Shown here: positions 7,975-57,669 of the stretch, piece after piece
Position numbering within the stretch: position 1 is the stretch's first letter
Layout of the letters: the number at the start of each line of letters is the position of its first letter
Translations under genes and position numbers: made by a program
The notes under the pieces: model-generated
Seen by the model: only the letters and a program-made list of their open reading frames with translations
Databases searched by the model: none
What the model was told of the DNA's origin: nothing
Assembly: GCA_003116975.1 (NCBI GenBank)
Contig: BGKB01000034.1
Location: 248,001 to 312,000 of the forward strand
DNA length: 64,000 bases
Source: Aurantiochytrium sp. KH105
Taxonomy: Eukaryota; Sar; Bigyra; Thraustochytrida; Thraustochytriidae
Reading direction: 5' to 3'

Positions 7975-8023
<49 letters not shown>

Positions 8024-8126: not shown

Positions 8127-8167
<41 letters not shown>

Positions 8168-10897: not shown

Positions 10898-13800
10898 CTA
10901 CAGCCTATCTACTGGCGCAATGTACGGCTGCAGACCGAGCTGCCGAGTCTTCTTGGCACGCTCGTACATGACTTCGAGGTACTTGTTCTCTTGTTCAAGA
11001 TCTTCGTAAAAATCCTTCGGAGCGTCTGTGTCGGCTTGATCGCTGCTGAGGCTCGACTCGAATGCAGATATATTTCTCTCTGCGCTCTCCATCTCGCTTT
11101 CAAGCATTTCGGTCAGATCATCAGGGAGCGAAGCGCGAATTCGATCCTCAGAGAAAAGCTCTTTGCATCGCGCGAATTTCGATCCTCTTGCTGCATTCCT
11201 GACCTTGAGCGCAATCAAGGCAAGCTGCTTGAGATCGTTCTCAACCAGCCCATCCGTCATGGGGTCATGTGCTACCCAGCTTTGCACTGAATTATCATCA
11301 TCTCTGCAGATCCACCATCTCTTGGCTTCATCTTCTGAATTCCACAGCTCCTCCGCACGAAAGACAGCGTCCAAGTCATCAGCGTTGTATATGCAGTCGT
11401 CGTCTTGAGTCGCGTCATAGCGAGGCAAAGTTGCAGTTTCATTTGATCCTCGAGGACACCATGGGTGCCAAGACGCGTCCATATTTCCTCGTTGCCAGTT
11501 TCCACGCGAGTTAGATGTGCTTTCTGGTGCGGATCGCTGAATACGATCGCCAGTCTGGAGATCAACGGTGCCAAAGTGATCAATCAGAGCGTGAATTGCG
11601 CCTTTAATTGCACTGGAGCACCGCTCTCTTTCGGGATCCTTTTGGCTTTTGCGCATGATGCCGCCCATAAATATGGACGTCGACCCGTGCTCCAAGGTTT
11701 GGTCAATGAAAGCTACATGCTTTTCGACATCTTGCCAGCGAAGACGACCGAATTCATCCCAGTATTCACGCTGTATCCTTCCAGGCAATCTGTTCATGAT
11801 CCCTAGACAGTTGTACAGCTTCGTGGCAAACTTGCAAAACCGAGTCTTGGTGAGAGGATGGGGAACAAAATTGCACCGTGTGCAAACTCGCACAATTTCT
11901 GCGTCCTTTGTTTGGTGTGATGCCGCGAGAAGATGCTTGCAGGCGTCAACGCGGCACATGCACTCATGGCAGTCGTTTCCCAGGAAAGTCCCATGTGCGC
12001 AAGTGAGACACTTCGGACAGGGAGGCTTCTCATTGTTTGTATCGTCATTTCTGCCGGGCCTCACCAGGCGAGCCTCTTGATGTTCTGCGCAATAGCAGTC
12101 GACGCACTCCTTGAGAGGTATGTCGTGATCACACCACTCCTTACAGACACTGCAGCGTCCCCGGATCGGTTCTTCACCCGAATCAAGCTTGCGATTGCAC
12201 TTGAAGCACCGACAACGATTGCAACGGCCTTCAGCGCATGTCCCAAGGCCGTTGCAGAGATCTCCATGTTTTGAACAATAGCACGATTTACATTCCCTCT
12301 TGGGAACTTCGTGCGCACAGTTGCAGGGATCAATGCAAGTCAGACACGCACATACGTCGCTAACCTTCCCATCGGGCCCTTCAAACCTTTTTGTCCGTTT
12401 GTGTTTGGAGCAATAGTGATCTGTACACTCGTCTTTCTTTTGCACAACGTCCAGACCGAGATCCTCGCACGTTTCACACGGATCCTCGCAAGCATCGCAC
12501 TCGTACTTGTCCCGGGAGACATCACGCCTTCGCCGATCGTGCATACGGCAATAGTGCTTCTTGCACTCACGTCTTGGCATTTTCTCCCCATCTTTGCAGT
12601 CTTCACACGGGCCTTCGCAAATTGGACAATGACCTTCCATCTCAACAAGGTCGACACCACCGTTATCAACGACGCCGCCATCAGAACGCCCGTGGATACT
12701 AGCAAAACACCAGTGAGGATTGACAGAGCCCGCGCACTCTCTGCGCGTCACCCATGGACTGTCGGCATCGTTCGCGTCGATGGCCTCGTGTGGGTGCTCG
12801 TAGGAGCAAGCGGGCTCGCCCTTACAAATGACACAACTCCCGCCTTCTGCACGCCGCTTGTGCGTCCTGCAAAAGTGCTGTTGACACTCCATCCTTGAAG
12901 GCCTTTCCCAATCCTCTATTTTGCTTCCGCAGATTACGCATGGATCTTCGCAAACAGCGCACAGGAAATCGCCCAAGGCATCGGGTTGCTTTTCTCTTCC
13001 GTGCTTGGAGCACCAGTGATCCTCGCACTCTTCCTCCCAAGAGATGTCTTCCTCAGATTTGCCTTCTTCGCGACATATTTCGCAGCCAAACTCACAAGAC
13101 ATGCACTTGCGTTCAGAAGACGACTGATCGCTCAACTTGTTTCCGCAGCCAGCCTGGCGACGGCCCCGGTGGGTTTCCCCGCAAATCGGGCATACGAGAA
13201 CCCTGGTCGATTCATGAATCTGGCACCAGCATTCTTTACAATCACGTTTCATCCTGCCATGACTGCAACAGCATTTCGAGCACTTCCCTGTATCCACGTC
13301 GAGCTTGATGTTCTCGTGCCCAGTCTCTTTACAAAAGCATTTGTGGCATCCTCTCTTGCCATCACGAGTCTCCAGAGGCTCTCCTGTGTGGCCCTCCCGT
13401 TGGCAGAAGCACTCTTTGCATTCGATGCGGTACAAGTCCTTGTGCGTTGGGCAGGGGTTAGCGCATACAGGACATTTCTTCTTCTTGCCCCAGCAAAACG
13501 GGTCCTCAACGCCAAAGACGTGTAACTCCTTCAAACGCTTATGCTCGCTGCAGTAGCAGACGCTGCATGCCGTGAGCAATCTTCGTTGCCGTATGGAACA
13601 GTCACAGATGCGGTCCTCGCTCAGGCTGCACGAGGGACACCCCACATTGGTGCGCTTAATAAACAGGTGATCCTTGCAAAAGTGTTCGTTACATTGCCAC
13701 CAAAATCGGAAGCGATGAGTTTCTTTCGCACACCGCTCGCAGTGTCCCGGTGAACGAGCAAGGGCGCATCGCCAATTCGCTCTGAGAAAGCGCGCGATGG

Positions 13801-17038: not shown

Positions 17039-18884
17039 ACCCACTTGCTTGGCAGACCGCGCGGCCACTCACAGGGCGTTGCGCTTGTTTGGTTTTTGGT
17101 CTCCGCTCAAGAGTTGCGGAGGCGCTGCGCCGGCACGGCCACCGCCGCCCGAAGAGCTGCTGCCGCTACGCGTTTGCACACGCTCCATCCATCGCGCCGG
17201 CAGCGGCTGCGTCGTTGACGAGCCTTTCCCAAGCGTACGCATCGTCGCCACTGCCAGCGTTTTCGACTACGAGGCTCAAGCGTCTGCAAAGGACTGAAAA
17301 GGCCTACTTGGGAAGGAAGGCTAGCGAGGGCAGGCTAGAAGCTACAACTACCAGCCGGGTAGCTCGTCTTTTTTGCTTTGGTCGGTCCAGCATGTGGGTA
17401 TGAGTGTGTGTAGTAATCGCTTATTGCACACCCACATCAACCGCGAATGCCGACCTCCGAGCCTCCGAATCCATGTGTCCTGGAAGAAGCTCCCAGGTGG
17501 TTATGTGATACTCGGCCGGCGGCTGCGGCGGAGATTCCTTCGCAGCCGCATCCCGAGCTCCAGCCATGGCCACAGCCACTGCGCCGGGGATGCGAAGTCT
17601 GCTCCTGCGGCTGCTGCTGCAGCCAGCTGCTGCCAGTGGCATGGCTGCTGCTTCTGTGACCATACCGTAGCCACTGCCAGCGCAGCACAGCACGCAGACG
17701 GCCGCTGCCGGCAGCGGCTGCGGGCAGCACCCAATCGGCAGCGACCCACGCCCGCCACCGAGGGGGGCTGTGGGGTGGGTGTCCCTGCAGCGCTCCCAAG
17801 GTCTGTTTGTGCGAGCGCTCGGTCGGAGGTCACCGCGCCAAGCGCGTGCAGTACCGACCTCGGCGGCGAAGACGGCGAGCAGCCATGGCAGCTGCGGCTA
17901 CAGCTACCATGGCTACTGCTACAGAAAGCGCAGCAGCAGCAGCCATATGGCAGAAGGTCGCAGACGCACGCGCGGCTTCGCGCGCGCGCGCGTGCACCTG
18001 CGGCGAATTGTTCTCGGCGCCGCGACTGGAGAGGGCGAGCGAGCGCGCTCCCCGCGGGCGCAGAAGCCTCGAAAAGGAGGCCTCGGCAGCGGCAGCCACG
18101 CGAGTACGACGGCGACTGGCGGCGCGACGCGAGCGAGACGAAAGGAGACGAAAAGAAGGAAGGCGAAGGGAATCGAGGCGAGACACAACGCACGCGCGAG
18201 GCGAGCCGCTGCCGCTGCCGAGCACACCGAGCCTAGCTCCCGACGAGCCAGCCGAGCCGAAAGGCAGAGGAAGCCTCACCCAGACGCACTCGGAAGCGTT
18301 GCGTACGTGTGTGCGTGCCTGGGCGTGCAGACGACCTCCGAGGCTAAAGGCTCGGGCTCGTGTAGCCGGCAGCTTATGCTGGAGCTGCTGGTGCTGCTGG
18401 TGCAGCTGGAGCAAGCCGCAGCCGCTGCCGGTGGTATTGGCGCGGGAAGCCCCGGAGCTGGTGCGTACACACGCCGCGCCGCCGAGGCCCGAAGGCGAAG
18501 AAGCACGTGCAGCTGCAGCATCTGCCGGCATGGCTGCAGCAGCTGCTGCTGCTGCAGACTCTAATGGACGACAGCGAGTTAATTCAAGGCGCATACCGTG
18601 ACTGCGACTCGATCGCTTGCAGCGACGGATCATCGTGAGGAAACACGGGCGGTAGTACCAGCGGAGAAATCGACTGCGGCGGGCGACAACCGGAGCTGCA
18701 CCTGCAGGCTGCAGCTGACCAAACCGCAATACGCCTACGCGTGGTTCTCAGCGACAGCCGTAGGTCTGTGCCTGCAAAGAAGCGATAGCTGCTTTGGTTT
18801 CTCGGCGTCGGCCGGGGGCTCGTGCCCGTGGAGAAGCGGTAGCGGCTGCGATTGCGGCGCCCACTGCAAGTGGTGGCGGAGGCG
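17039..18884. promoter_or_regulatory. Shared upstream region of the divergent pair A/B
   Basis: 1.85 kb of GC-rich DNA, rich in CTG/CAG-type trinucleotides, between the start codons of A and B. No gene is convincing: frames are Ala/Arg/Ser/Cys-rich and overlap in all six readings. A bidirectional promoter is inferred from the head-to-head layout; no core element was identified. Confidence 0.5.
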
Positions 18885-21800
18885 ATGGAGGCCCCGGAGG
18901 AGGCTGTGAGCTTGAGGCTCTTATCCTGCGATGGGGACTCAAGCAATGGAGACAAGCCGAAGAAGAAGGGAAAACCGGAAAGATGCTTCTCTCTCGTCTG
19001 TGGAGGTCTTTGGTGTTTGCCGATCCTCGTGCTGGGTCTACTCGGCCCTGTATCTTGGCTCCTTACCATCTACTTCTCGATCGACATCGCGCTCGCGTCG
19101 AGCTTGGTCGAACAGCCTTTGGAGAGCGCAAGCTTGGGCTGCAATACGCTCGCGCAAGAGGCGCAGAGGCTTGGCGTGACGAATCTTTTGTGGCAAGGCT
19201 CATGCAACAACTTCGATGACATCCGTGACATCTTCGACAAGAGCGCATATGTCGATCTCATCACGCTTCTCACGATGCTGATTGCCCGCCAACAAAATGA
19301 CAAGAACTGGATTACTTTAACGTTTGGCCAAGACACAGGATGCTACGACCTCACCAGCAAGATCATGTATTACATCTTAAGCGTCGGTATCTTTCTTCTT
19401 GCCATCTTTGTGCCACGATCATTTGGCTCGAATTCGCACTCTGGCAAGGAGGCTAAAATGTATCGTCCAATCAAGGAAATTGCCACGCGTTTCGCGTTCG
19501 ACAGACACTTGAACAATACGAACAAAGACCCAGAAATGCGTATAGATCCAAACGGTTGGAAAGCCATCCTTACGCGTGCCAAATTCTGGGATTCTGCAAA
19601 CAGGCCCGAGAATTTTGCTGTTCTGGACTCCTGGGACGACAAATGGCGTTACATTCGTGACAAGATGAAGCCCGCCCGCTCGCTTGCACTCGGAGGCCAA
19701 AAATTCGCGAATTCAGACTTGCAAGCGCTCCTCGAACTCACGAAGAATGAAGACGCAGAGACCAAGCCAGCGGCAGGGGACTCGTCGCGCCATTCCGACT
19801 CCGACAGCCCAAAGAGAAACCTCGAACTTTCGCTGATCCCCGAAGCGGAAAAGCGCGTGCGTGAGGCTGAAGACCTTATGAGCGAGAAAATGGCAAATGT
19901 GGAAGGAGCCTTTAACGCACACAAAATGAGTCTCTCTCACTCGTTTGGGAGAGCCGTATCACAATCGCGTGCAGAAAGCGAGCTCGCCGCCGTCATTGAG
20001 GTAGCAAGGAATGCTGCGCGAGCCCTCGCTGAGGCAGAAGACCACCTGCATCAACTTCGCGCAAACCAGCGCGAGAATGCTAACTGCACAAAGAGGAACG
20101 GAGGAGGAGGTACTCATGACGACCCAAGCATGATTGTTATGGAAGCCATGATCGAGAAGGCCAGTGACAATGACCATCAATGGACATTCTATCGATGGAT
20201 CTCTGGAACAACAGATGGGGATGGTCGTGTCGACGGAAAAGAGGCCGACGAAGACCAGAAGAACCTCAGAAAAAGCGCTGAAAGGTATGTCAAGAATCGA
20301 ATTGATCGCTGGGCAAAATGGTCTCTCTTCTTTTGGATCATCTGTTGGCTCGCGATGAGTGCGCATCTGGTTTTCCTTATCTTCATTCCCGCCATTGACG
20401 ACTCCGGTATAATAGGGCGGCGGCTTTCTGATACAACAGATACTAATCTCCCGTGCGTTCGTCTTTCCACCATTCTCGAAAACAACACAATTGCATTTGG
20501 TGGTGCGTGCATGGATACAAGATCCTTGGGAGAGGTCTTAGGCGTCCTTGAAACGACCGTCAACATCCAGAACGAGTTGTCCAGGATCGACTCGATCCTT
20601 TACGCTTTCGTCTTTAACGGAGACGCGTGGTCCCGCTTCCGACAGCAAAGCAGAGTTTGCACACCTCAACTCCAAAGTGGCAAGGGTTTTGTCAAAAGTA
20701 TCCTCGGCTCCAATTTTTTACGAGCATTCTCGCTTCCCACAATTGTCTTTCCAAGTTTTTTCACATTTGCCTATGCTCCCGTTACGCAACGCTACATCAT
20801 TCCCAGGCGCGTTTACATTATTCTGGGAGAACTAAGGGACCACTTGGTTTTACGCGGAATCTCGCAGGGTAGTAAGGTGCTACCGATAATCAAGGCGCTC
20901 GGAACGTGGGGTAATGCAGTACTGTTCTTCTTGGTAGCTGTTGGAGTCACCGTCATCGCCCTCGCAGTTAAGTATCTCCCGACTTTGTTGGAAGATTTAG
21001 AAGCAATATCCCCTGGAACGCCGACAGTACCTCCAACGCTTTCGACACTTGCCCCCACAAACTCTCCTACGCAAGCGCCAACGTCTCTCCCTGTGCTCAG
21101 TCCAACTTTTGTGCCGACAATGCAGCCCACGGCCTCTCCATCTACGAGCCATGTAGCATTGGAAGATATGCACTTGACGAGGGGAGACATCGCGGATGCT
21201 ACTGTCGGAGTCTTCGTGTTTCTCTGTTTCGTCATTGCATCATGCAGAAAGTGGGGTGTAGGCGATGCTGGAACTCCTTATCTCCCCAAGTCCCGAAAGC
21301 GCGTCGCAAAAGGCCTTCTCGGGCTCGTATATTTTGTCGTGGGAACTCCTTTCCTCCTCGTTGTTGGCATTGGTGCGCTCCCTTTTGTTCTTTTAGCGCT
21401 TGGCGGCTACATAGTCTACAATGGAGCTAAAGGCCTTAAGTCTGGAGGCGAAAGCCTTTGGCGTCGCGCAAAATTTGTCGGGGCTTACTTTTGGACCAAA
21501 TTCATCCGTCCAAGGCTTCCCGATGCCTGCGAGCTCTGCGACTTAGAGTTCAATCGATACAGGCGATGGTACAAGTGTCAGGATCATTACTGCGAAAAAC
21601 ATCACTATCGGCATGGAACTCTCCAAACACCATCTTGTCCAAAATGTGATGATGAAACTGTGGAACTTTGTGACTGCACGAAGAAGTTGAACCGCCCACC
21701 CCTTCGTGAGTGCGAAGTGTGCTTCTGCATTACCCACGACGTAAGAAAGACTGAGTCCTCATCCAGAGCTCTCTGTGGAGAACCTGACAAAGTTTGTCGC

Positions 21801-31815: not shown

Positions 31816-31846
31816 GCCTCGCCTCGCCTCGCCTCGCCTCGCCTCG
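31816..31846. repeat. GCCTC pentanucleotide microsatellite
   Basis: Six tandem units; same unit as at 641-675. Confidence 0.85.
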
Positions 31847-32332: not shown

Positions 32333-32362
32333 CGGACGGACGGACGGACGGACGGACGGACG
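32333..32362. repeat. GGAC tetranucleotide microsatellite
   Basis: About seven perfect units. Confidence 0.85.
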
Positions 32363-39903: not shown

Positions 39904-40580
39904 TTGCACTTACATTTTGATGGCGTTTTCTCTATTTGATATCCGACCTTTGGTGAGGATGCTGCAGCTTGCTGCTACTTTCTGCGCGCGAGAGCACGCG
40001 CAAGCCAGCGACCTCAGGTAAGCAGCTAGCCAGTATCCGATGGCTGCAATGCGTTTTCTGATTCTAAAGTGCGTTTTACAAATCTGCTTCATGAATCAAG
40101 GTCAAATTTACACACTCGCCACTCACTGCAAACTTTGGCGAACTGCGGCATCGTGCGCCCGCCTGAATTTATACGAACCTGCTATTCACTCGTCCTTTAT
40201 TTAGAAAAGGGTTTGTTTCTGTCCTCTAGTTGAAGTCCCAGTTTCCACCTTCCTATCGGCCAGTCAGCAAGTTGTGCACCGTGCATGTGCAGAGATCGTT
40301 TTGCCAGCAAAAAATATATCAAAGCAGCGACACCAGCCAGCCGCCACTGCGGCAAGCAGCCATTTAGCAGAGAATTTGGCCATGGTGCCATGGTCTACAG
40401 TCTCATCAGCCAGCCTTAGCTTAGCTAGCAAGTGGGGCTTAACACATCCAGGTGCAGAATTAACTATCGCAAGCGCAGAATCAACGCTTTCGAAAACTTA
40501 AGATTGATTCTCAATTTGAGCTGGCCGAGATTGAGGTAATGCCATACGTAATCGGCAAGTAGACCTGCGATGCTTCATTT
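39904..40580. other. Spacer after D up to the duplication breakpoint
   Basis: The first ~190 bp match the DNA after F. From about 40100 to 40580 the sequence is unique in the window and less GC-rich than the divergent spacers; no gene seen. Confidence 0.6.
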
Positions 40581-40838
40581 GCGGCTCATTGAGCGCAGGA
40601 ACGAGGAAACCCGAGATTGACACGACTGAGGACAATGCAGCGCGGCCTGCGAAGAAGACGAGGCAACTTGCGCCACCTTTGCGATCATTGCAGAAACCGG
40701 CAACCGATTGCGCGTTGAGGCCCAGTACGACGAGGTGGACGGGCGGGGAAGTTATACCGAGAGATTTAAAATCCAAACAAACACATTTTTCATCATCTTA
40801 TTCGAGCCAGGTCCGCAAATACGTCATTTCTCGCCGCT
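40581..40838. repeat. Stranded copy of the B 3' end and C 3' flank
   Basis: Starts at gcggctcattgagcgcagga, matching the last codons of B at 24137, and runs in step with 24137-24379 through the B stop region to the C/E 3' end. B itself is not here, so this is the left end of the duplicated unit. Confidence 0.88.
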
Positions 40839-46800: not shown

Positions 46801-47738
46801 AAGATTTGCGAGGCAAAGGTCCGAGCAGTAATCTTGTCTGCGTTTTGAAGCAGATGTTCCAGTCGTGAGAGATCGGTGCACTCCCCGAGCCAAAGAAACC
46901 TGTTTTGGCCACTGGCCGCGGCGATCTGTCCAAGACCTTGCGTGCACTCAGTCGGTGGCGCGACCGCTCCATCGCAGTCAAAAGCTGGCCAGACCCAGAC
47001 AAATGCCCACCAGAACAAATAGGCGAGGCAGGTGATGAGCACAAGCCAAAAGAGCGCCCAATAGCACCATGACTCAAAGCGTGAGCCTGCAAACTTGGGC
47101 AGCTTCTTGAAACCAGTCGGCTTCATTTCTTTTTCGTATTTTATACGATCCTGATCCTCATTGACAATCTTGTCGTCATCGTCGTCTTCGTCTCCACTCG
47201 AGAGATCGTTGCCAGGACCGTCTCCATCCGCGGCGACTTCTCCCTCGTGATCGTCATAACCTTTTCCCGCGTCATTTGTCTTGTTCTTGCCGCGATTCCA
47301 ATGGAAACGATTTCTCAACGATGAAACTCTGCTGGACATACTGTCAGCAGCACTCTTGCTCTTTGCGTGCACACTGATTCCCCCGGGCGCAATAGCGTCT
47401 CCAGCTTTTCCTCCTCGTTGTTCTCCAGACTGGCCGCCGTCTGGGTCGTGATGCTGACGATCATCCCCTTCATCACCGCCCTCGTTCGCTTCTTTGGACG
47501 GAACCACTGCGCCGACCTGCTGTGCCACATGTCCATCGCGGTCGTGGACCGAAAGCCCATCCTTAGCCCCCTCGACCTCGGCGCCATTGCGCCTGTCATC
47601 GCCATTCTCTGGTACGGCAAAGTTGCCATTCGTCTTGCTGTTTTCGCAATCGTCATCTTGCCCCTTGAAGCCGGCAGTGAGCGTCTCGTTTTCGGTGCCC
47701 TTGGCAAGCGCCTTACCCTTGCGGGTTGGCCACCGCAT
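40839..47738 (-). CDS. Giant Cys/His-array membrane protein E (minus subfamily)
   Basis: 2299 residues from the ATG at 47738 (MRWPTRKGKALAKG); as in C, the only earlier in-frame start is a TTG. It is the duplicate of C: same acidic head, six membrane helices, two ectodomains (FLWLGECTD and VSFAGRCID), Cys/His array (~1180-1865) and C-terminal domain (WYAHDPMTDVLTEGD). Differences from C cluster in islands: the coiled coil between helices 2 and 3 (an extra DRNGDVDEDTLHD), the segment before helix 5 (an extra SMLHPPLPPA), one array linker (CINLGVPDDEMM against CDVSEEKM), and two C-terminal stretches after KLHNC. Elsewhere long runs are identical. Head to head with F, convergent with the D remnant. 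Confidence 0.87.
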   Translation of the reverse strand: MRWPTRKGKALAKGTENETLTAGFKGQDDDCENSKTNGNFAVPENGDDRRNGAEVEGAKDGLSVHDRDGHVAQQVGAVVPSKEANEGGDEGDDRQHHDPDGGQSGEQRGGKAGDAIAPGGISVHAKSKSAADSMSSRVSSLRNRFHWNRGKNKTNDAGKGYDDHEGEVAADGDGPGNDLSSGDEDDDDDKIVNEDQDRIKYEKEMKPTGFKKLPKFAGSRFESWCYWALFWLVLITCLAYLFWWAFVWVWPAFDCDGAVAPPTECTQGLGQIAAASGQNRFLWLGECTDLSRLEHLLQNADKITARTFASQIFDPRTPDTLLSWDSWRDGSLYEVASCYDCETRILMFIGIGLGLVVFIALSWLGETLHDEKEAQLYRPILNVAMVYLTMHDFADLSADSFEKYVLSFREIDAVERYHGESHWIMKFAAKPYAFLKDTAFGLTYTTNAFRDLRDAHFGDDDASRDSRNAGTAKVFRFAPAAFVVQKRELENIDKRLQSLDRNLQEATKQFADQSEGLLSALDKVTEGLDRNGDVDEDTLHDAQVPMDDLFEKMNELKEERKTLMERRRGIEQKLQEVTGQDEGKKAAYYAVEMMFFAFTMVNRRELYWRRPPGQPDASDAGSGPLSRLRRRIWFPRFSCWSVTDWFWRLVRCEWARSKCRPGSSSPCCHALCACSRPKWCSFKGCVNGILSILGADGAEKKTEDPKGEAYPLLEKYNTKEMLSNYVQEVLTKWAVSAYIFWFSALSALAICIGLVCLYVWGQVIMSEWPGTTRYGNCTRLSDLLPSQVSFAGRCIDYDTLYNLLVEVEEADFTHGPFYSMPESVLLIDDKPVDFLTRAYAQMHLCAAHPHRKFWAVAKAIAIAVAMVSWFGYFIFSRRAVRWFFLPFIREGYDVGVKYACYTTRRLWKGLCWLGRTFLTCISGLWSGICIVIRHGNAVCRDQRSLCSFKRTFPDDEGEGDVDTDDDGDDGDDTDDDDDNDDDTDDNDDDTDDNGADYDDEDDDDGSQQGENASSSSASMLHPPLPPAGSSGNNSSIGNFRKRLPRWPSSPVNKKAYSEDHSRTAKSGEKNTERKEKSKAAIDYMRGIVLAKRFSRQGFELVVLSVMLMCFSVVFCTVFAVSVTPILFLSSVSTPTMVGLATSIMSGEFGLLLVILVVLAVVVPLVLFLRANWRCALSISPGRCRACAEKHHRYRFWKSCQTHYCKTHEFFKSDGNACPACESNEPLCDCSGRNKKLRQDCDVCFCVKHQLIKTRDVPGQERDPAREKLCLICTDPCPQHELVYRLDCEDCYCQRENHKGEPLRSDKRGCAKCFCQSNPDHRDVKLDVLTGLCPECTCAHHVDRSECEVCWCEIHDRATSVVCWDCNSTHLGSHKPECETKELDTADPKADRICMNCSYGCNACRADGVRKEDVCWEEECTLHWCSKHARFGRPDSNGKCECEVCVDPCPFCINLGVPDDEMMHARTECHGPPEGPRRGHYCVEHQREAPENDGRCIVCNGEPTCHHVHEGEDRILTRQECARHDDAHWCFGEMHKKTNEGLVETDGGVDLVEANGQCPVCADPCEECPSDRKRAKTMCASHYCAAHARYRVKGNFGFWRCAACEDPCPECKQKLSQQDIEDRGSGDTKAPKADECEDHYCSKHKRRVNLGRAETSVRDDGQCLLCTDPCTCGHSVPAQECEKCYCIEHKRFLCASDRCADGYCDLCICSYCKRRRDKDEKPIHGRCIRCKGWCDHDVDLETCDQCFCSKHGQPRLMRKQPVLDGAKPEVLPCLRCISCEHEGEDFWSAGEEEEMRGEHSNEGYIGKCSRCYCRHQRDDHPPAYCDHLLTRACQSTDSAWVRVCTRCSVVPLPLTKTRFCKFAAKLHNCLALTNKLPENLMREYWPARRKWGPFSPGKDLGRLSWRDLEEHVSFRYATRERAAVSIWSGGREVNSSKRGDQCAFAVRVAIHALEEQFEVVNLATGERAKLIQFEEKEGDTSRENSRRSEDQGDANGPGRDTNRWHPWFWAGSDESPSLSTYRYGAVEAGSHFLEGRKLDDIFRAGSLWDASSDRRWWPDGSNGDARWKSSDSWYAHDPMTDVLTEGDIERLAAVAVDLKDSVEAMRYPRCVTYFSEENQLGFLVQDPAQQAMGALQSTSVELLTEKVREAEEGPRKYRERMSKNQKSKDANSKSYQEIQEENEQDAKVHADAERFWGMGLTPYVPPALRPLRRDTQLSPRGTFASGQSQLNARALLGSRHSLWKSERLRTTRSTSGSIGSPSEGRRRRTWAAVLRSISGRTLRDDGENSDDEVEDDDREY

Positions 47739-50145
47739 CTTCACGTTTTTGCTGCCGCTCCGCGACCCTATCTCCGTCGCGTCAGGGTCACGCAGAGTCG
47801 GAGTCCGCTGCCGAGTCCGAGTCCTGCGCAGGAATCGAAAGTCGATTGCTGCTGCTGCCAGCAGCAGCAATCAACCAAGTGTCAAGGCCAGCGAAAGTTT
47901 GGCCTCGTGCGTGCACAAGCAGCACGCGCTGCAGCTGCGCGTGCAGCCTGGAAGCAAGACCGCAACCCTCAGCCACCAGCCACGTCCTCGATTTGCATAT
48001 TTTCCTTTGCTTTCCTCCTTTGCTTTGCTCTGGTTTGTCTGCGCGTTGCCTCGCCTGCCGCCCACCATGGCCAGTGGAGAAGCTCCTGGCCAAACAGAAC
48101 ACCAGCAGCCCGCCTCGGAGCGGCAGACTCTACGTCAGCGTCTCGCAGAAGCTAGCGTGCTTGCACTTGCACGCCCTTGACCAAACCTAGCCCGAAACTC
48201 GTCGTCGAGGTCTCGCGAGACGAATCCACTTGTTGACGCGACGCGACGCGACGCGACGCGTGCACCCGGTCTCGCAGGCGCCCTAGCCTGGCCTCGCGCC
48301 GAGCCAAGCCTGGTCGAGTCGAGTCGAGTCGAGTCGAGTCGAGTCGAGTCGAGTCGAGTCGAGTCGAGCGTGCCGAGTTGCTGAGCGTGCCGAGTTGTCG
48401 AGCTCGGTGCACGGCACCTGGCTGCACGTCCGGCTGGTGCACAGAAAGGAAGAGGAAAAGGGAGGAAGGAAGACTTCCCGTAAAAGTGTGACTCTTCCTT
48501 TTTATTTTCCGTCCGGACCCGGTGCGGCCCCGCGCCAGTGGTGTGGGGCCGAGCCGCACTGGGTGCAGCGCGCGAGGACTGGTCAGAAGACCAGCTCCAG
48601 CGCAGCGCCAGCGTTGGTGGCTGGCGTGTGCATGCGAGACAGGCCCGAGCGGCGTGGTGTGGACAAGCGCTGCGGCTGGCAAGGACAGCGCGCACGATCG
48701 AGCTTGGGGGGGCGTCGTGCAATCCCATGGCCGCATGCCACATGCTGATGCTGCAAAAGAACTGCGAAGGAAACAAACAAACCACTCCAAAGCAAACCAA
48801 AGCAAACCAAGGCGAACGACCATGCGAATGCAAATCAACGTGTACCGCCGGCGCCTGCCATGTGCACCGCGCAAGCGGACGAACGGAGGGGCTGTCGGAG
48901 GCGGCAAGCTGCAGCTGCAGGCTGCAGGCTGCGGCCACGGCGGTTGGCCCGGCCAGCGATCTCCGTGGCTTTCTCGAGGACTTTGGACGAGCAAGACATG
49001 CCGACCGACCGACCAACCAATCGATCAAGCCCTCGCTGTCCGTCAGAGCAACAGCCACACCACAAGCGGCCGCGGTGCGGGCAAAGGTTGGCACTGCACG
49101 CGGCAGCAGGCTGCAGTGCAGCTGCTGGCTCGATGGAAGCCACACTAGCTCGCGAACAAGCGATCCTGGCTGCGAGGCGCCCTGGAGATGAAATGCTGGC
49201 TCGATCATCCGCAGCCGCCAGCTTTTTGATTGGTGGTCATCGGGTCATCGGGGCTATCTGGCTGGCCGACTTCAGCCGCGAATGGTTGGTCGGTCGGTCA
49301 TCTGCGCTTCCCAAAATCTCCGGGAAGGCACAGAGCTCTGTGCCGATTGGTTAGCCAGTGACGCGCGGTGTCCACGGAGCGGAATCAAGGCGGCTTGCGG
49401 AAGCTCCGGAGGCCGCCAAAAGTGCTTTTTCTAGTCGCCCTCGCAGCCATCCAAGCGGTGCCTAAACCTGAGGGAGCAACAGACGCCGCGGCGAGGCGCG
49501 ACGCTGCGCTCGCTGCCTGCAGCGCGCCTTGCACACGCACACGCACGCGCCGCTACGCGACCCTAATCCCCCCCCCTCCCCTTCTGCGGCCGCTGCCGCG
49601 CGCGGGCTCAGGGCTCGGGACGGCGCTCATGGCGAGCGCGCTGCGCCAGGGCGCCAGGGCGCCATGACGCCAGCGACCCCGCGCGCGCGGCGCAGCGACG
49701 GCCGGAGCGACGTGGCCGGCGGCACGCGAGCAGCCTGCTGCGGCGAGCTTGTGCGCGAATGGTCGCTTCGTCGTCTGCTGCTGCTCGCGTGGGTGCGCAG
49801 GGCCGCCGTCGTTGGCGGTCTCCGTGCACATAATTTGTTTTGATTACACCCCGCACACACCCCTCAGGAAGTGAGCAAGAGCTTTAGGGACGGCTTTTGG
49901 CACAAGCTCGCGTCCGCCTGCGCGTGCACTTCGGATCGGCGCGAGACGGAGTTCGGGGGCGAGCACGCCGTGATGAGCTCCTCCCGCCGCATCGATTTTG
50001 TGGCTTTGGAAGAAGGGGGGGGAAGTAAGCTGGCCCGGGGTCGAGAGAAGTTACGAGAGCAACACTCTGTTGGCTGAGCACGATTGCGTGGAAATCGAGG
50101 GCCATCGATGGCGTGGGCTCGGGGCGTTGACAAAGAGATAGATCG
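47739..50145. promoter_or_regulatory. Shared upstream region of the divergent pair E/F
   Basis: 2.4 kb between the starts of E and F, GC-rich, with microsatellites of its own: GACGC (48235-48260), GAGTC (48314-48368) and an AAACC/AAAGC stretch (about 48775-48815). Segments near F match the C/D spacer, for example gccagcgaccccgcgcgcg and, near 49870, gtgag(c/t)aagagct. No gene is convincing. Bidirectional promoter activity is inferred. Confidence 0.5.
48314..48368. repeat. GAGTC pentanucleotide microsatellite
   Basis: About 11 tandem units, the longest pentamer run in the window. It is absent from the C/D spacer. Confidence 0.9.
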
Positions 50146-53100
50146 ATGACGAAGCTCCTGCCGCATCACGATGTGCAAACCGCAATGCCAGCCATGAGGA
50201 GAGCGGGCTTCGGGAGGGTCGCTGCGGCGGAGGCAGCGCCGGCGGCGACGACGAGATCGCCCGCGAATCATGCTTCGGAGTCGTCAGAGTCCGATGCCCA
50301 GCGGAAGGGGCAGTCAAAGGTCATCCACATTCTGCGGTTTGTCGTTGAGTTTCCACGCGCACTCGTTGTGGTGTTCCTCCGAGGCTTCTTCGTGCCTCTT
50401 TTCTGGCTCGTGTCCATTTACTTTTCGGTGAAATTTGGTATAGATGGCGTATGCGCCCAAGATACCTTGCTGGGCGCTAACCTCACGTGCGCTTCGATCG
50501 GGGAAGAAGCGCAGAACCAAGGGGTGACCGATGTGCTTTGGATGGGCTCATGCACAGCCCTCGTAGACATCCGTGATCTCCTCGAGGAGAGCGGCTACCT
50601 GGAGCGCACCAGCTTTCTGGACTTGATTGTACGCAACAACATTCGGGATATGAGTATCCCTGAGGCCCTCGCGCGAACCACCAAGTGCTACGATTGGGGT
50701 TCGAAGATCATCTTCTATTGTTGGAACGCTATCATTCTTCTCACAGCCTTCTTGTTCCCTCGCTTGCTCGGTGTGTATCTCCACGCAACCAAGGACGCTA
50801 AATTCCGTCGCCCCATCCAGGATCTCGCCACGCGTTTGGTCTGGGACAAGTATTTTGGCAGTGGCGGAAGGAAAAGAGGCCAGATAGCGAAGCCAGAGCC
50901 TAAAACTTGGAAGTCTCTTCGAAAAAGTCTTCACATCTTTCAAAATGAGACGGGCCAAGAAGCACCGCTTTCGCACAGGGGAAAATGGTACATTCTCCGT
51001 GACATCCTGCAGCCTTCGAGGCCATATGCTGTCGGGACCCAAAAGCTAGCTCCCCACAGCCTCGCGAAGCTTGTCAACCTCGTTGAACCCGAGGAACCTG
51101 AGCATGAAAATGAGAATGAAGACGAAGATGGCGCCAAGGACGAGGTCGCCGACGCTGCCAGAGAAAGCGACTTTGAGTCAGAAATTCTCTTGGCGCGCAA
51201 TCGGGTCGACGAAGTCGAGCAAGACACCAAGGCTCTATATGAAGAGCTAAATTCTGCTTTCGACGAGTATCGACACGCCCGAGAAGGTCCTCAACCCGCT
51301 CATGCAAGCACCATTGCTCAGGCGAAGGAAGCATTGGACTTTGCGCGCAGTCAATTTCACGATGCCACGACGGAACTTCGAGAGGCCCAAAAATCTCTTG
51401 AAGATCTGTACGAGAAACGCCGGCAGTACGGCGTCAAGCTGAAAAGTGAGAGAGATAAGGGGAAGCGACCGAGCGTAATCATGCAAGCCGTCATACAGGC
51501 TGTCGAGAGCGAAGAGCGGACCTGGACGTTCAAACAGTGGCTGCAAGGCGTCTGGAGTATCCTGTGGAACGGGCATGGCTTCTCGAGCAAGAATCACACC
51601 CCGTCCGCGGTCGCTCCTCAACCGGAAGAGGAATCCGGCAATATTCTGTCTGCCGAGGTCCGGCACAAGGACGAAGAGGATAGTCCTTCCAAGCAAAATA
51701 CATGGGAAGAGCAGGCTACAGAATATGCAAAACAGGTGGTTGCGCGATGGGAGAAACTAGCATTCATCGGCTTGGTCTTCTCGTGGATCGCGCTCTTCGT
51801 CTATATTGTTACACTCATTGCGTGGCCCGGCGCCAACGACATTATGGCGACGCTTGGAAAAAGTGTTTCCGATTCGATCGCGGCGAGTCCTGACTGCGCT
51901 CGCCTCTCCGACATCGTCGCAAATCGTATCGTCGCATTTGGAGGCGAATGCGTCGAGACGGAGACAATCAGAAGTTTCCTTGAGGTATTAGAAACCACAG
52001 CGAGCATCGAAAAACAGATCGCAGACTTGGACTCGGTACTCTACTCTTTTGTAAAAGACGGGGAAAAGCAGAACTTCTTGTTGCGCTTTATGGAGCAGAC
52101 AAAGTATTGCGCGCCACCCTCTCGATCTGGCCAGTTCTTTGCTAACACCAACATCATGCGTGCGGTACTGCTTCCCTCCATTGTGCTTCCTACATTTACC
52201 TTTTTCGTCTATGTGCCGACGAAACACCGCCATTTCATACCCAAGTGGTTCAAAGACTTCGTCTACAAAACGTATCGTACCATCAGGCAAGCCATAATCG
52301 TCACGACTAAGTGGACATTAGCTATGATCAAGAGCCTTCTTGGCGCTACGATACATTGTCTCTTTGCGACGATGGCTAAAATAGGACGTGCAATCATATG
52401 CCTTTGGGAACGCCTTCGCGCGCTTTGTACAAAGCGCAATTCTCTGGACAGAATCCGACCCGTTCCCGAGCAAGAGCTGATGCTGCAACGAGGTCCTGAA
52501 GATTACAAACGGCCTGCCTTTGTGGCACTCCTGGTGGCTTGCATGGGCTCTGCGATTGGCATCCTGGCGTGGAAAATTGCATCTTCTGAGGTAGGATCTT
52601 CCGTGCCATCGGCACCCCCGACAATGGCGACGCTGACGCCCGCACCGACGCAATTCCCTACGCGTGCGCCTACGCCAAATCCGACCTTTTCCCCAACGAA
52701 TGCGCCAACTGCGCCGACGACACCTGCTCCGACGGAAGCAGGCCTTGATGACTATCAGATTGCCACCATTGCAGCGGGCGTCGTCGTCTTTCTCATCCTC
52801 CTAGGCGCGCGAAGGCACATCTCACGATTTCTTGTCAGCTTCGCCAATGGCGCCACCTCGGCTGCTGCTACTGGAGCGCGTCATATGGCTTCGTTCTTGA
52901 GTGGCCTCGGAAATGGAATCATGTTGGTGCTGAGCATCCTCTTTGATATCACTTCCCACGCCTTGGAGAGCTTATGGCAAAGAGTCATCTGGGCAGGGGG
53001 GAAATTTGTCGGAGTGGTTTCCAAAATGTGGCAGCGCATTGTCAGCACAGTCGCTATGACGTGGAATGCCTTTGTTGGTGTTGTGAAAGGGCTATGGTTC

Positions 53101-56100
53101 GGCATTGTGCGCCTGACTACGTGGGCATGGAATGCTCTCACGAGCTTCGTGTCACGGACCTGGAAGTTTATCATTTGCCTCGTTGAGCGGCTTTGGACGA
53201 CATTCACTTACGTTGTTGCACGCGTGTGGTTGTCCTTTGTGAGTGGTGTTGCATTCGTCTGGAAGGGCTTCGTGCGCGTGGTCATCAGAGTTTGGGAAAC
53301 TGTTGTCGGGGCAGTTGCTTGCGTTTGGCTCACAATTGTTCGGGTAGTTTCGGGTACCTGGAAGGCTTTCATTGGGGGGGTCGAAATGTTATGGAACGCT
53401 CTATGTTTTGTCGTCGAAGCAACCTGGAATGGCATCGTAGCGGTGATTGCTGGGATTTGGAAAGTCTTTACCGGAAGCATCGTCTTGCTCTGCACTGCGC
53501 TCGGCAAAGGTGTCGTCTTGGTCTGGACCCCCATTGACCATTTCCTTGGTATCACCGCCTGGATCCCAGCTTCTATCCTCTCCTCCTTAACTGGTGCCGC
53601 TCGGGGTATTCAGAGAGCTTGGAAAGCTCTCGTCAGGACTATCACCTCCGTTTGGAAAACCTTTACCCAGAGCGTCGCCACGGTCAGGGATACCGTTGTG
53701 CGTATCGTTTCAAAGTCTTGGAAGGGCATCGTCTCTTTTGTTTCTTCAGCCTGGAACACGCTGGTGGATGGAGTAAAAATGATCTGGAGAAACATCTACA
53801 ACTTTGTCTCATTCAGCTGGTTGGGGCTGGTCTTCATAATTAGCTCCGCGTGGGGACATCTCGTTTCTGGGGTCGTTTTCGTCTGGAACGGCCTCGTCAA
53901 ACTCGTCAAGGCGACCTGGAATACCCTAGTCTGGGCAATCAAGTCTACATGGTTTTTCTTGGTCAACATTGTGACCACGGCCTGGAGCTTGCTCGTCTCT
54001 ATTGTCACGAAAACCTGGTTTTCTATTGTTTTCGTCGTCACTAAAACTTGGCAAGCTCTCGTCAAGACGGTCACTTTTGTGTGGAAGACGTTCGTGCAAG
54101 TTGTGACAGGCACGGCACAAGCAATCAAGTGGATCTGGACTACCTGCGTCGCGGCGATCGTCGGAGCGTGGAAGACCCTTGTTCGGGTGGTAACGCTGAC
54201 TCGGACTGTCATCACGTCAGCGGCTACTCTGATCGCAAAGAACACACTTTGGGCCGGAACCACTTGCGCTCTGGGAGTTGCTCGGACGTGGACACGAATC
54301 AAGAAGCTCGCAAGCTGGACTCGGAAACGGCTTGTGGAGGGCGCCTTGCGGCTGTGGAAACTTGCAAAGACTGTTGGTACGCTTTTGGCCAAAGCTCTCA
54401 TTTACATTGTCATCGGCATCCCGCTCGCCATACTCGTATCCGCTATCGCAGTCGGTTTGGTTGCCTTGGGCGTGGCGGTTATTCTGGTCGCAGGCGCAAG
54501 CGCTATTGCGATTGGTATTCCTCTCGGTGTCATCTTCGTCATTGCAAAGGGCGTTCAGCGGCTCGTGCAAAAGTTGGCGCAAGGGCTTCGCGCATTGCAC
54601 AATACTGTTGTACCTCACCTCCCATCTCGGTGCGAGCTCTGCGCTTTGGAGTTTCACCGTTACCGACGCTGGTATAGGTGCCCTGATCACTACTGCAGAA
54701 CACATCGTTTCCGTGTTGATACCAAGATTTCCCAATGCCCAGAATGCAACGGCCAGCGTCTTTGCAATTGTAAGTCCCCGAGCCGGCCGTTGCGCGAGGA
54801 GTGCGATATATGCTTCTGTACGAAGCACAGAGAGGAAAAGAAGTTGCCCGTTCGCGGTGGCTTTTGTGGAAAGAGTCGCATGGAGTGCCGAATTTGCGAT
54901 GACCCGTGCCCAAACCACGACGATCTCCATCGAACGGAGTGCACTGAGTGCTTTTGTGTCAGACACAATCTGCCGAGGACCGAGATCCGGGATGGCGGAA
55001 AGGGGTGTACTCAGTGCTTTTGTGAAAACCACCCAGACATCAAGCTGAACAACAAGGACCAATGCCCAGTATGCCATTGCCGCCACGAGCGGTCACGCGC
55101 TGATTGCAGTACTTGCTGGTGCTCAATTCACCATGCCAGGAAGCACATTAGGTGTTCGACGTGCGGGGATCTACACGCCGATGACGAGGCAAGCTGGAAT
55201 TCCCGCTGCGTAAGAACCGAAAGCACAGAGTGCCTCTGCTGCTCTGACGGGTGCGAGATATGTCGAGAGGACACAGAGGTTGCTGAGGAAGACGTGCCGT
55301 GGCGCGAGGAGTGCTCGCACCATTGGTGCGCACTCCATCGGCGAAGTGAATCCGAAAGCAAGGGACGGAACGCGAGCGAAAAGTGCAGGGTTTGCAGGGA
55401 TCCTTGCCAGATCTGCCAGGCCAACAAGGTTTCAAGTCATGAGCTTCCAGCTCGTGAAGAGTGCGATGAGCATTGGTGCGAAATGCATAAACGTCAAGAG
55501 TGTGTCATTTGTAGTGGTATCGAGCAAGCTTGCCCTTATCCCCATGACGAAAACGTGGACAAGGTTCTGACGCGGAGCGAGTGTGCCGAAGAGGGTCGAC
55601 ATTGGTGCCGGAACGTTTCGCATCGTGACACCTTCGAACTGGGTCGAGATACCGACGATCTGGAGGGACAGGATCTGAACTTTGTGGACCGCGAAGGCTT
55701 TGTGGATCTTACGGAGAACTCCACGTGGTGCCCGGTGTGTAACGATCCCTGCGGCGAATGCGCAGATGGCTGCAAGCGAGCTCGCACCACTTGCGAGAAA
55801 CACTTTTGCGTCGGCAAGCACTGCATTTCAAAGACGCATCGTGGGGACGTTGACGACTGGGTGTGTGAGCCCTGCGAGGATCCATGCTCGACGTGCGAGG
55901 ACGAGGGATTGACTCCACCATTGCGCACGGCTTGCAAACGCCACTACTGCAAAACGCATAAGCGCGACGTCAATGAAGGACGACTCGAGTCTGAGTGGAG
56001 AGACGATGGGGAGTGCCTTGTTTGCACGGATCCGTGCAGCTGTCACGAAGGCAAAGCTCTCCCGGAGTGCAGAAAGTGTTTCTGTACAAAGCACGAGAGA

Positions 56101-57669
56101 AGCCTTTGCACGAACCGTGGCGCTTGTGCAGAGGGGTTTTGCTCCGAGTGCACTTGCATCTTTTGCAAGAACGACATCAGTATTCGAAATCCCAAAATCT
56201 CAGCAGAACGATGCCAGACATGCGAGTACTATTGCAAGCATGTCAAAGATCGCACTTCATGCGACATTTGCTGGTGCTCTGTGCATCATCAGCTACGAGT
56301 TATCGAAAACGAGGGCGAAAATACCATTGACGGCCATCCTTGGCCCTGTGCTGAATGTTGTCGGCATGCGAAGGAGCCCACAGAATGCTCCATCTGCTGG
56401 TGCTCTTTGCATAAAACACTTCGTAACTTCAAAGGCTCGCGGGAGGACTACATTGATGGCCATCCTTGGCCATGTGATAAATGCTGTAAGCATGCGAAGG
56501 AGCCCACTTCATGCGAGATTTGCTGGTGCTCTAAGCACGGCAGGCGTCGAGACATTGGAGACCCACTGGAGGACCACATTAATGGCCACCTTTGGCCTTG
56601 CGCTGCATGCTGCAAACATGCAAAAGAACCCCGAGAATGTCCCATTTGCTGGTGCTCTGTGCATAATGAACCACGAAATGTGGAAAACGAGGATCTTGAG
56701 ACCATTGATGGTCATCCGTGGCCATGTCCGAAGTGCAAACCATGTGAGCATAGGAAGTGGACTCGCGAAGAGTGTGAAATCTGCTATTGCAGAACTCACA
56801 AAGAGTACAAGATTGCAATCTACCCAACAGCAGCTTTACCAGATCCAGGAGAAGATGATAACGGCGATGACGGTGGCCTCTTTGCGGCGTTGAGCACATC
56901 ACAGGAACGATATTGTTCCAAGTGTGGAAAAATACCCGGTCCGCTGACGAGGAAGCGCTTCTGCAAGTTTGCTGCCAAGTTGCATAACTGCATCAACTTC
57001 GACGACCAAGACGAGTTTATTTCGTGGAAGGAACTCTGGAAGCACTCAACGGCTGATATGAGAATCGACTATCCAAGTATTCATACAATGGGAGGTAGAG
57101 TAGACAAGAAGCCAGAGGAGAAGAAGAGGCTCGAGAAGTTCTTTGCCGCAATTAGGACTGGGCAAAATGCAATTCAGCACTTTGCCGAGAACGCAGCTGC
57201 GGACCTGCAAGTTCATCGAATGTGGGTCGTTTACAATCCAGACCGACCCAATAGTGTAGGGCATGACGAGAGCACGAGGACAGGGAATCGTTATAGCGAA
57301 AAGAAAGTTCTCGAGTTCTTTAGAAGAGCAGAGAGAGCAGAGCACAGGTGGACGAAGGATAACGAGGATGTAATTTTTCACGAGCCAGCTGCTGACATTC
57401 TTTGTTCGTCGGATCTACAGGAGATGTCATACCTTGGTTCTAGAGAGCCTGATGGATCCAAGTACGATTACAGGAATGTGTTTTCTGGAGAAAAGTTTGA
57501 GAAGCAGCTTAAGAGGGAAGGCGTTTTGGAAGAATTTAGTCGACCTCATCCGCCTGGTGCTTCGCCGGGCCTTGCGCAGAAGATTGAAGATGAAAAAGAA
57601 AACGAGCAGCTTTACCAGATGCTGATGGAACGACGAGATGCCGAAGCAGATGTATTTGCTTCTTCCTGA
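50146..57669 (+). CDS. Giant Cys/His-array membrane protein F with Trp-repeat array
   Basis: 2507 residues from the ATG at 50146; the ATG at 50185 (MPAMRRAGFG), shared with D, is an alternative. Helix 1 ~71-95; ectodomain 1 ~96-185 (LWMGSC, third Cys in TTKCYDWG); helix 2 ~187-208; coiled coil; helix 3 ~537-560; ectodomain 2 (CARLSDIVANRIVAFGGEC); helix 4 ~669-690; helix 5 ~788-808; PT-rich stalk ~815-862 (PTQFPTRAPTPNPTFSPT); helix 6 ~871-890. Residues ~962-1352 hold 32 hendecad units led by Trp. A very hydrophobic stretch (~1415-1468) precedes the Cys/His array (~1495-2282). The array has about 16 modules, including three exact 42-residue repeats. GPLTRKRFCKFAAKLHNC and the C-terminal domain (IFHEPAADIL) follow. 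It is the longest and most elaborate member, intact where D is broken. Role unknown. Confidence 0.87.
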   Translation: MTKLLPHHDVQTAMPAMRRAGFGRVAAAEAAPAATTRSPANHASESSESDAQRKGQSKVIHILRFVVEFPRALVVVFLRGFFVPLFWLVSIYFSVKFGIDGVCAQDTLLGANLTCASIGEEAQNQGVTDVLWMGSCTALVDIRDLLEESGYLERTSFLDLIVRNNIRDMSIPEALARTTKCYDWGSKIIFYCWNAIILLTAFLFPRLLGVYLHATKDAKFRRPIQDLATRLVWDKYFGSGGRKRGQIAKPEPKTWKSLRKSLHIFQNETGQEAPLSHRGKWYILRDILQPSRPYAVGTQKLAPHSLAKLVNLVEPEEPEHENENEDEDGAKDEVADAARESDFESEILLARNRVDEVEQDTKALYEELNSAFDEYRHAREGPQPAHASTIAQAKEALDFARSQFHDATTELREAQKSLEDLYEKRRQYGVKLKSERDKGKRPSVIMQAVIQAVESEERTWTFKQWLQGVWSILWNGHGFSSKNHTPSAVAPQPEEESGNILSAEVRHKDEEDSPSKQNTWEEQATEYAKQVVARWEKLAFIGLVFSWIALFVYIVTLIAWPGANDIMATLGKSVSDSIAASPDCARLSDIVANRIVAFGGECVETETIRSFLEVLETTASIEKQIADLDSVLYSFVKDGEKQNFLLRFMEQTKYCAPPSRSGQFFANTNIMRAVLLPSIVLPTFTFFVYVPTKHRHFIPKWFKDFVYKTYRTIRQAIIVTTKWTLAMIKSLLGATIHCLFATMAKIGRAIICLWERLRALCTKRNSLDRIRPVPEQELMLQRGPEDYKRPAFVALLVACMGSAIGILAWKIASSEVGSSVPSAPPTMATLTPAPTQFPTRAPTPNPTFSPTNAPTAPTTPAPTEAGLDDYQIATIAAGVVVFLILLGARRHISRFLVSFANGATSAAATGARHMASFLSGLGNGIMLVLSILFDITSHALESLWQRVIWAGGKFVGVVSKMWQRIVSTVAMTWNAFVGVVKGLWFGIVRLTTWAWNALTSFVSRTWKFIICLVERLWTTFTYVVARVWLSFVSGVAFVWKGFVRVVIRVWETVVGAVACVWLTIVRVVSGTWKAFIGGVEMLWNALCFVVEATWNGIVAVIAGIWKVFTGSIVLLCTALGKGVVLVWTPIDHFLGITAWIPASILSSLTGAARGIQRAWKALVRTITSVWKTFTQSVATVRDTVVRIVSKSWKGIVSFVSSAWNTLVDGVKMIWRNIYNFVSFSWLGLVFIISSAWGHLVSGVVFVWNGLVKLVKATWNTLVWAIKSTWFFLVNIVTTAWSLLVSIVTKTWFSIVFVVTKTWQALVKTVTFVWKTFVQVVTGTAQAIKWIWTTCVAAIVGAWKTLVRVVTLTRTVITSAATLIAKNTLWAGTTCALGVARTWTRIKKLASWTRKRLVEGALRLWKLAKTVGTLLAKALIYIVIGIPLAILVSAIAVGLVALGVAVILVAGASAIAIGIPLGVIFVIAKGVQRLVQKLAQGLRALHNTVVPHLPSRCELCALEFHRYRRWYRCPDHYCRTHRFRVDTKISQCPECNGQRLCNCKSPSRPLREECDICFCTKHREEKKLPVRGGFCGKSRMECRICDDPCPNHDDLHRTECTECFCVRHNLPRTEIRDGGKGCTQCFCENHPDIKLNNKDQCPVCHCRHERSRADCSTCWCSIHHARKHIRCSTCGDLHADDEASWNSRCVRTESTECLCCSDGCEICREDTEVAEEDVPWREECSHHWCALHRRSESESKGRNASEKCRVCRDPCQICQANKVSSHELPAREECDEHWCEMHKRQECVICSGIEQACPYPHDENVDKVLTRSECAEEGRHWCRNVSHRDTFELGRDTDDLEGQDLNFVDREGFVDLTENSTWCPVCNDPCGECADGCKRARTTCEKHFCVGKHCISKTHRGDVDDWVCEPCEDPCSTCEDEGLTPPLRTACKRHYCKTHKRDVNEGRLESEWRDDGECLVCTDPCSCHEGKALPECRKCFCTKHERSLCTNRGACAEGFCSECTCIFCKNDISIRNPKISAERCQTCEYYCKHVKDRTSCDICWCSVHHQLRVIENEGENTIDGHPWPCAECCRHAKEPTECSICWCSLHKTLRNFKGSREDYIDGHPWPCDKCCKHAKEPTSCEICWCSKHGRRRDIGDPLEDHINGHLWPCAACCKHAKEPRECPICWCSVHNEPRNVENEDLETIDGHPWPCPKCKPCEHRKWTREECEICYCRTHKEYKIAIYPTAALPDPGEDDNGDDGGLFAALSTSQERYCSKCGKIPGPLTRKRFCKFAAKLHNCINFDDQDEFISWKELWKHSTADMRIDYPSIHTMGGRVDKKPEEKKRLEKFFAAIRTGQNAIQHFAENAAADLQVHRMWVVYNPDRPNSVGHDESTRTGNRYSEKKVLEFFRRAERAEHRWTKDNEDVIFHEPAADILCSSDLQEMSYLGSREPDGSKYDYRNVFSGEKFEKQLKREGVLEEFSRPHPPGASPGLAQKIEDEKENEQLYQMLMERRDAEADVFASS
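53029..54201 (+). repeat. 33-bp coding repeat: 32 Trp-led 11-residue units in F
   Basis: Block 1: 15 units, starting at 53029 and repeating every 33 bp to 53523. A 96-bp linker follows (53524-53619). Block 2: 15 units from 53620 to 54114, again every 33 bp, then a 21-bp step and two more units at 54136 and 54169. Consensus W-[KN]-x-[LIF]-V-x-x-V-x-x-[TAV], for example WKGFVRVVIRV, WNGLVKLVKAT and WKTLVRVVTLT. The Trp is replaced in only two units (CTALGKGVVLV, RDTVVRIVSKS). The DNA units are well diverged while the protein spacing is kept, so the array is old or under constraint. Confidence 0.95.
56326..56829 (+). repeat. 126-bp coding repeat in the F Cys/His array
   Basis: Units begin at 56326, 56452, 56578 and 56704, exactly 126 bp (42 residues) apart, the fourth diverging in its second half. 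Each starts I(D/N)GH(P/L)WPC and includes CC(K/R)HAKEP and C-x-ICWCS-x-H. D has one unit fewer (unit starts near 39029 and 39155). Confidence 0.92.

Follow-up and report, generated by a model that had tools for sequence, protein, structure and literature searches.

Co-duplicated head-to-head pairs of giant multi-pass membrane proteins in Aurantiochytrium sp. KH105: possible two-subunit receptors or scaffolds with a Cys/His array

Described systems and the layout of the locus

Proteins with many CxxC motifs and a membrane anchor are known from Giardia in the form of the VSPs and the high-cysteine membrane proteins. Among the domains recognised by the spacing of their cysteine and histidine residues are the RING domain (C-x2-C-x9-39-C-x1-3-H-x2-3-C-x2-C-x4-48-C-x2-C) and the LIM domain (C-x2-C-x16-23-H-x2-C-x2-C-x2-C-x16-23-C-x2-[CHD]). 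With regard to gene layout, the closest described system is collagen IV. In those portions of the source drawn on here, the six paralogues COL4A1-A6 are arranged as three head-to-head pairs that were copied as pairs and whose chains co-assemble, heterotrimers being described; the reference list includes titles that name a bidirectional promoter, and in shark collagen IV alpha3 and alpha5 relate to alpha1 and alpha4 and alpha6 to alpha2 (PMC12141075).

The locus considered here lies in a window of 64,000 nucleotides (the whole stretch of DNA that was analysed) and consists of six single-ORF genes of 5.1-7.5 kb each (standard code, first ATG), here called A to F. The genes alternate strictly in strand, which results in three divergent pairs: A (10898-17038, minus strand, 2046 residues) with B (18885-24185, plus, 1766 residues), C (24380-31246, minus, 2288 residues) with D (33796-38919, plus, 1707 residues, truncated near the end of its array) and E (40839-47738, minus, 2299 residues) with F (50146-57669, plus, 2507 residues). 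By blastp every gene product matches every other, the weakest best HSP being that of B and C at ~1e-95. An earlier note had described six giant paralogous membrane proteins in three head-to-head pairs, with the minus-strand members A, C and E closer to each other than to B, D and F and with one of each subfamily in every pair. The ORFs and the all-against-all blastp agree with the first of these statements, and the split of A, C and E (the alpha type) from B, D and F (the beta type) was recovered in 200 of 200 neighbour-joining bootstraps in each of six regions, these being partly overlapping in that three are parts of the membrane region, with D absent from the C-terminal region. Taken with the ORF layout, this split places one alpha and one beta member in each divergent pair. 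HSP identity is 84% between C and E, and 76-82% between D and F with an additional piece of 44% at the join. Within the Cys/His array identity is 45.0% for A-C, 47.6% for B-D, 96.3% for C-E, 88.5% for D-F and 37.5-41.6% across types; in the membrane part the corresponding values are 33.5%, 27.9%, 89.2%, 78.2% and 16.3-20.2%.

Like collagen IV, therefore, A-F are six paralogues in three head-to-head pairs with the pair copied as a unit (PMC12141075), and each divergent pair holds one member of each subfamily. They differ in that the protein is another one and in that COL4, in the portions cited, occupies three chromosomes whereas A-F form one array; heterotrimers are described for collagen IV (PMC12141075), and for A-F a heteromer is a proposal.

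The earlier note had recognised no known family, and for the whole proteins this holds within Pfam, NCBIfam, PADLOC and PDB sequences. None of the six proteins gave a family at the curated cut-offs of Pfam or NCBIfam, or at E<=0.01 in PADLOC. Against PDB sequences the unit profile gave no match, alignment A2 gave one weak match (Miranda, E 0.47) and alignment A1, searched to E 10, gave 42 weak matches, of which the best had E 0.11 and many were coiled-coil chains; matches of one stretch of this profile to TRIM25 chains were set aside, the other matches at that place being coiled coils. Also set aside were the weak Pfam matches below cut-off on B (TraP, PT repeat and a deaminase), C (DUF2207_C at E 0.00043, FapA, GED and DUF1664), D (DUF3584 and PUMA_CC) and E (DUF1664). 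A match of C to NCBIfam SepX/GlpR (E 5.6e-7) scores 29.7 bits where the cut-off is 160; it covers residues 963-1120, which include an acidic low-complexity loop, and was rejected along with further NCBIfam matches below cut-off, three weaker ones on C and three on D and E together. A phage match was looked for and not found for the array and C-terminal region of A, and no title among the literature matches listed concerns the family. The family is thus unmatched in the libraries searched, that is, Pfam, NCBIfam, PADLOC, PDB sequences and scans of viral and prokaryotic contigs that were limited in sensitivity to two peptide patterns each, taken from alignment A1 or A3.

Membrane architecture and the Cys/His array

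The proteins are built in one order: two modules, each consisting of an ectodomain between transmembrane (TM) segments, are separated by a long loop and followed by a further TM pair, the Cys/His array and a C-terminal domain, the last of which is lost in D. The two ectodomains, defined by hydropathy as flanked by TM pairs, have ~100 residues each, and three cysteines per ectodomain are invariant in all six proteins. Homology between the two modules was shown by hhalign, which aligned 80 columns with a score of 40.5 (E 8e-6, probability 84%); in the controls the highest score was 16.8 among 30 column shuffles and 18.8 for the reversed profile. The loop between the modules has 306-375 residues. 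In an AF2 model of the membrane part that is poor overall (mean pLDDT 39.5), the best portion is a part of this loop in A, which forms a helical hairpin with pLDDT of 57-73 by blocks of ten, and with low confidence the model suggests that the loop may be partly coiled coil. The third TM pair encloses a loop rich in proline and threonine (PT-rich) in B (20970-21188, plus strand) and F (52573-52752, plus strand), predicted in both to be on the outer side, and a shorter one in D. After this pair a hydrophobic stretch able to form a hairpin is present in D and F and, less clearly, in B.

The orientation of these proteins was approached through the charge of their loops. Under a model with the N-terminus inside, K+R content is 0-9.7% in all 18 outside loops and 11.9-20.6% in all 24 inside loops, on a TM list fixed by hand to which one B segment below cut-off (605-625) was added and in which other hydrophobic peaks were merged or left in loops (A 1036-1054; B 56-74 and 823-841; C 1126-1144; three in D 1060-1115; F 725-743, 915-933, six within 1029-1351 and three within 1411-1466). 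This charge bias places the array in the cytosol, and most of each protein would then not be exposed at a surface. The suggestion of the earlier note that A-F are a surface system accordingly stands in part: the two ectodomains of ~100 residues and the PT-rich loop of B, D and F would fit it, whereas the bulk of each protein is predicted to be cytosolic. The membrane in question may be that of the cell surface.

The array itself holds 41-53 CxxC/CxxH pairs per protein. It was located at 11879-13756 in A (minus strand, 42 pairs), 21513-23384 in B (plus, 46 pairs), 25697-27709 in C (minus, 43 pairs), 37216-38916 in D (plus, 41 pairs, truncated), 42183-44204 in E (minus, 43 pairs) and 54619-56865 in F (plus, 53 pairs), where an expanded tandem repeat of 42 residues (126 bp) at 56325-56658 adds Cys/His units. 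The usual unit is C-x2-C-x3-C-x1-2-[CH]-...-C-x2-[CH]-x-C-x2-H, and a regular expression retrieved 49 units, some of which overlap. A profile of the unit (E up to 10) matched 13-18 places per protein, 8-13 of them above 10 bits, with a few weak matches outside the array in C and E; among 300 shuffled proteins the same profile gave a single match at E<1. The Cys/His repeats are conserved in register across A-F, and the histidines conserved at fixed ligand positions suggest that the array binds zinc, in which case each protein would carry ~20-26 zinc ions if two pairs bind one. To our knowledge few rows of predicted zinc sites would be denser. An AF2 model of the array (no zinc placed) has a mean pLDDT of 50.2, with 116 of 890 residues at 70-90, and with this model Foldseek returned no match at E<=0.001 and seven at E<=10, the best at 4.9. 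The fold of the Cys/His array is directly testable.

History of the pairs and what the pairing may mean

The segment 24129-40009, containing C and D, matches 40573-57804, containing E and F, in several blastn pieces. One block of ~16-17 kb, with a whole alpha-beta pair, is present in two tandem copies, C-D and E-F. The pair A-B is older, synonymous change being saturated in A-C, A-E, B-D and B-F, whereas C/E has a dS of 0.114 and D/F one of 0.223. The splits of A from C and of B from D are similar in depth (array identity 45.0 and 47.6%, dN 0.65 and 0.63, dS saturated in both), as expected if this older duplication also involved the pair as a whole. Both the blastn block and this likeness in depth bear out the view that the pair was copied as a unit. 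The history of the block is nevertheless not simple, as divergence is uneven between D and F (dS 0.22 as against 0.11 for C/E). At fourfold sites C and E differ at 60 of 887 positions, homogeneously (p 0.16), and D and F at 78 of 585, heterogeneously (p 7e-5), with divergence of 0.33 and 0.22 in the middle of the gene (D codons 586-1048, ~35554-36942) and of 0.05-0.17 per window in the rest. This more diverged middle suggests that a segment was exchanged and that the genome may contain further copies. Over all synonymous sites in windows of 100 codons C/E is patchier (pS 0.017-0.238); gene conversion as the sole cause of the likeness of C and E was set aside on the homogeneity of their fourfold divergence (p 0.16). 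The most economical explanation is that one block was duplicated and that part of D or F was later exchanged with another copy.

Beyond the stop codon of D at 38919, coding sequence like that of F continues on the plus strand to ~39900 (38920-39900), only as broken pieces in two frames with stops, so that D is without the last repeats and the C-terminal domain. Between C and E identity is 96.3% in the array, 89.2% in the membrane part and 78.1% in the C-terminal domain, which makes the array the most constrained of the three. It was also observed that in the C-terminal domain (C codons 1900-2200, ~24650-25550) pN between C and E nearly equals pS in two of the three windows of 100 codons (0.213 vs 0.209 and 0.202 vs 0.238), whereas the array is nearly fixed.

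A shared promoter in each pair, which had also been proposed, is conceivable but drew no support from the head sequences. The head regions between start codons measure 1846 bp in A/B (17039-18884), 2549 bp in C/D (31247-33795) and 2407 bp in E/F (47739-50145), and alignment across the three revealed no conserved core. Between the C/D and E/F heads blastn alignments are limited to the ends and one weak piece, the central parts remaining unaligned, and the A/B head shares with the other two only pieces of 21-37 bp. The three heads have 18 10-mers in common against a Markov expectation of 1.9 (maximum 6), the corresponding numbers for four control triples taken from other stretches being 0, 0, 6 and 0. 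This excess may reflect a weak shared signal; most of the common 10-mers are, however, rich in GC or CTG, and seven further stretches of the window, taken for comparison, contain nine of the 19 listed and are without the other 10.

Our preferred reading, held tentatively and at somewhat less than even chances, is that the co-duplicated alpha and beta giants form a heteromeric, multi-pass membrane receptor or scaffold whose zinc array lies in the cytosol, and belong to a family unmatched in the libraries searched. Co-duplication and co-retention suggest that the two types are subunits of one complex, and the reading is preferred mainly because of the collagen IV analogy, which is an analogy only. 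Under this proposal alpha and beta would assemble as a heteromer, aided by the putative coiled-coil loop; the small ectodomains with their conserved cysteines would face outward, together with the PT-rich loop in the beta type, and the zinc array would provide a rigid cytosolic platform for partners. If the pairs do encode obligate subunits, a protist would possess COL4-like co-duplicated head-to-head partners, in a membrane system that has no described family in the libraries searched. Block duplication alone would, however, give the same gene layout, and retention as pairs may be plain history. It is thus quite possible, if also short of probable, that the pairing reflects only an ancestral inverted duplication followed by tandem block copies, each protein acting alone or as a homomer. 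The recent tandem copy seen by blastn fits such a history, and two points that favour it also count against a heteromer, namely that the head sequences are poorly conserved and that D has decayed at its 3' end and lost the C-terminal domain while its partner C is intact. Less easily explained by history alone is that A and B are both intact and still head-to-head, although their synonymous divergence from C/E and D/F has reached saturation.

Two further readings turn on the nature of the array. The arrays could be strings of domains of RING or treble-clef type, and the proteins membrane-bound ubiquitin ligases or adaptors. The ligand order C-x2-C...C-x2-[CH]-x-C-x2-H...C-x2-C does resemble a cross-brace, and sub-threshold matches were obtained for one unit in 20 to zf-RING_2 (E 0.00087, 20.0 bits against a cut-off of 27.3) and zf-RING_10 (E 0.001), and one in 20 matched zf-RING_12 (E 0.039). 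The spacer between C-x2-[CH] and C-x2-H is usually one residue, however, strict RING, LIM, B-box and PHD spacings have no match in the six proteins, and the whole proteins have no RING match in Pfam; we consider a ligase or adaptor of this kind unlikely. The very high cysteine content, the many CxxC motifs and the membrane anchoring also recall the Giardia VSPs and high-cysteine membrane proteins, with the array then extracellular as part of a cysteine-rich surface antigen. This is very improbable, given that A-F are multi-pass proteins with histidine at fixed positions in the ligand sets, that the charge bias puts the array inside and that C and E are strongly conserved in the array, in contrast to a variable antigen.

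A tryptophan repeat confined to F, and the flanking genes

F alone has a segment in which tryptophan recurs at every eleventh residue (52951-54240, plus strand; residues 936-1365, ~430 residues) with a consensus like that of tape measure proteins. Residues 906-1400 contain 40 tryptophans, 26 pairs of which are exactly 11 apart; A-E have one or two pairs at this spacing, and D, a close copy of F, is without the segment. For residues 936-1365 the hydrophobic moment is greatest at 98.5 degrees, nearly the angle of a helix that makes three turns in 11 residues; its value there is 0.372, whereas 200 shuffles reached no more than 0.135. In these residues K+R outnumber D+E by 40 to 8. Searches of PHROGs with F gave seven families (best E 2.9e-19), six of which are tail tape measure proteins, with the best matched stretches within residues 872-1489, and none for A, B, C, D or E at E<=0.01. 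By tblastn residues 962-1358 matched 112 phage records, with identity of 22.7-26.1% in the 25 listed of these 112. In single PHROGs controls, two in-register blocks joined gave 13 families (10 tape measure, best E 1.4e-15) and a column-shuffled repeat gave 13 (nine tape measure, best E 7.9e-23, at least as strong as the native), whereas one reversed and one shuffled F repeat gave none each. The likeness therefore lies in a directional 11-mer consensus.

In the portions of the source cited, phage tape measures are described as having 11-residue repeats with tryptophan as a marker (PMC3271669). The F repeat is likewise a tandem 11-residue repeat with a Trp/Phe marker, and it resembles the tape measures in its period and in the dependence of its profile match on direction. 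It differs in that F is a eukaryotic membrane protein whose best matched stretches lie within residues 872-1489. The resemblance may be due to convergence or to transfer. A fuller version of the two-subunit reading, in which giant receptors or scaffolds with a new zinc-array fold would include an F that gained, through transfer or convergence, a phage-type tryptophan repeat and uses it as an amphipathic, cationic helix ~60 nm long that lies along the inner face of the membrane, appears distinctly unlikely. The segment raises the question of whether a phage ruler repeat and a segment of a eukaryotic membrane protein can reach one directional consensus independently.

No phage tail gene module surrounds F. 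The flanking genes identified by Pfam encode an Obg-type GTPase (5834-7216), Rad52 (7790-9616, minus strand) and a TRIP12-like ubiquitin ligase (from 60433, extending past the window end), on the basis of which the locus is taken to be nuclear and eukaryotic. In PHROGs the Obg-type GTPase matched families of unknown function and Rad52 matched recombinase/DNA repair families, with no tail family in these or in the TRIP12-like ligase. A viral or prokaryotic origin of the family was set aside, as scans of limited sensitivity, with two peptide patterns each, found no relative in viral contigs or GTDB genome contigs and the flanks include ordinary eukaryotic genes. The G+C content of the window is mostly 0.50-0.65 which, together with the PT-rich repeats and the long genes free of interruptions, would fit a stramenopile and perhaps a thraustochytrid. 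A stretch at its beginning (1-2000) is GC-rich (G+C 0.73), and adjoining this at 2059-2798 a unit of 249 bp is repeated three times in tandem with 93% matches.
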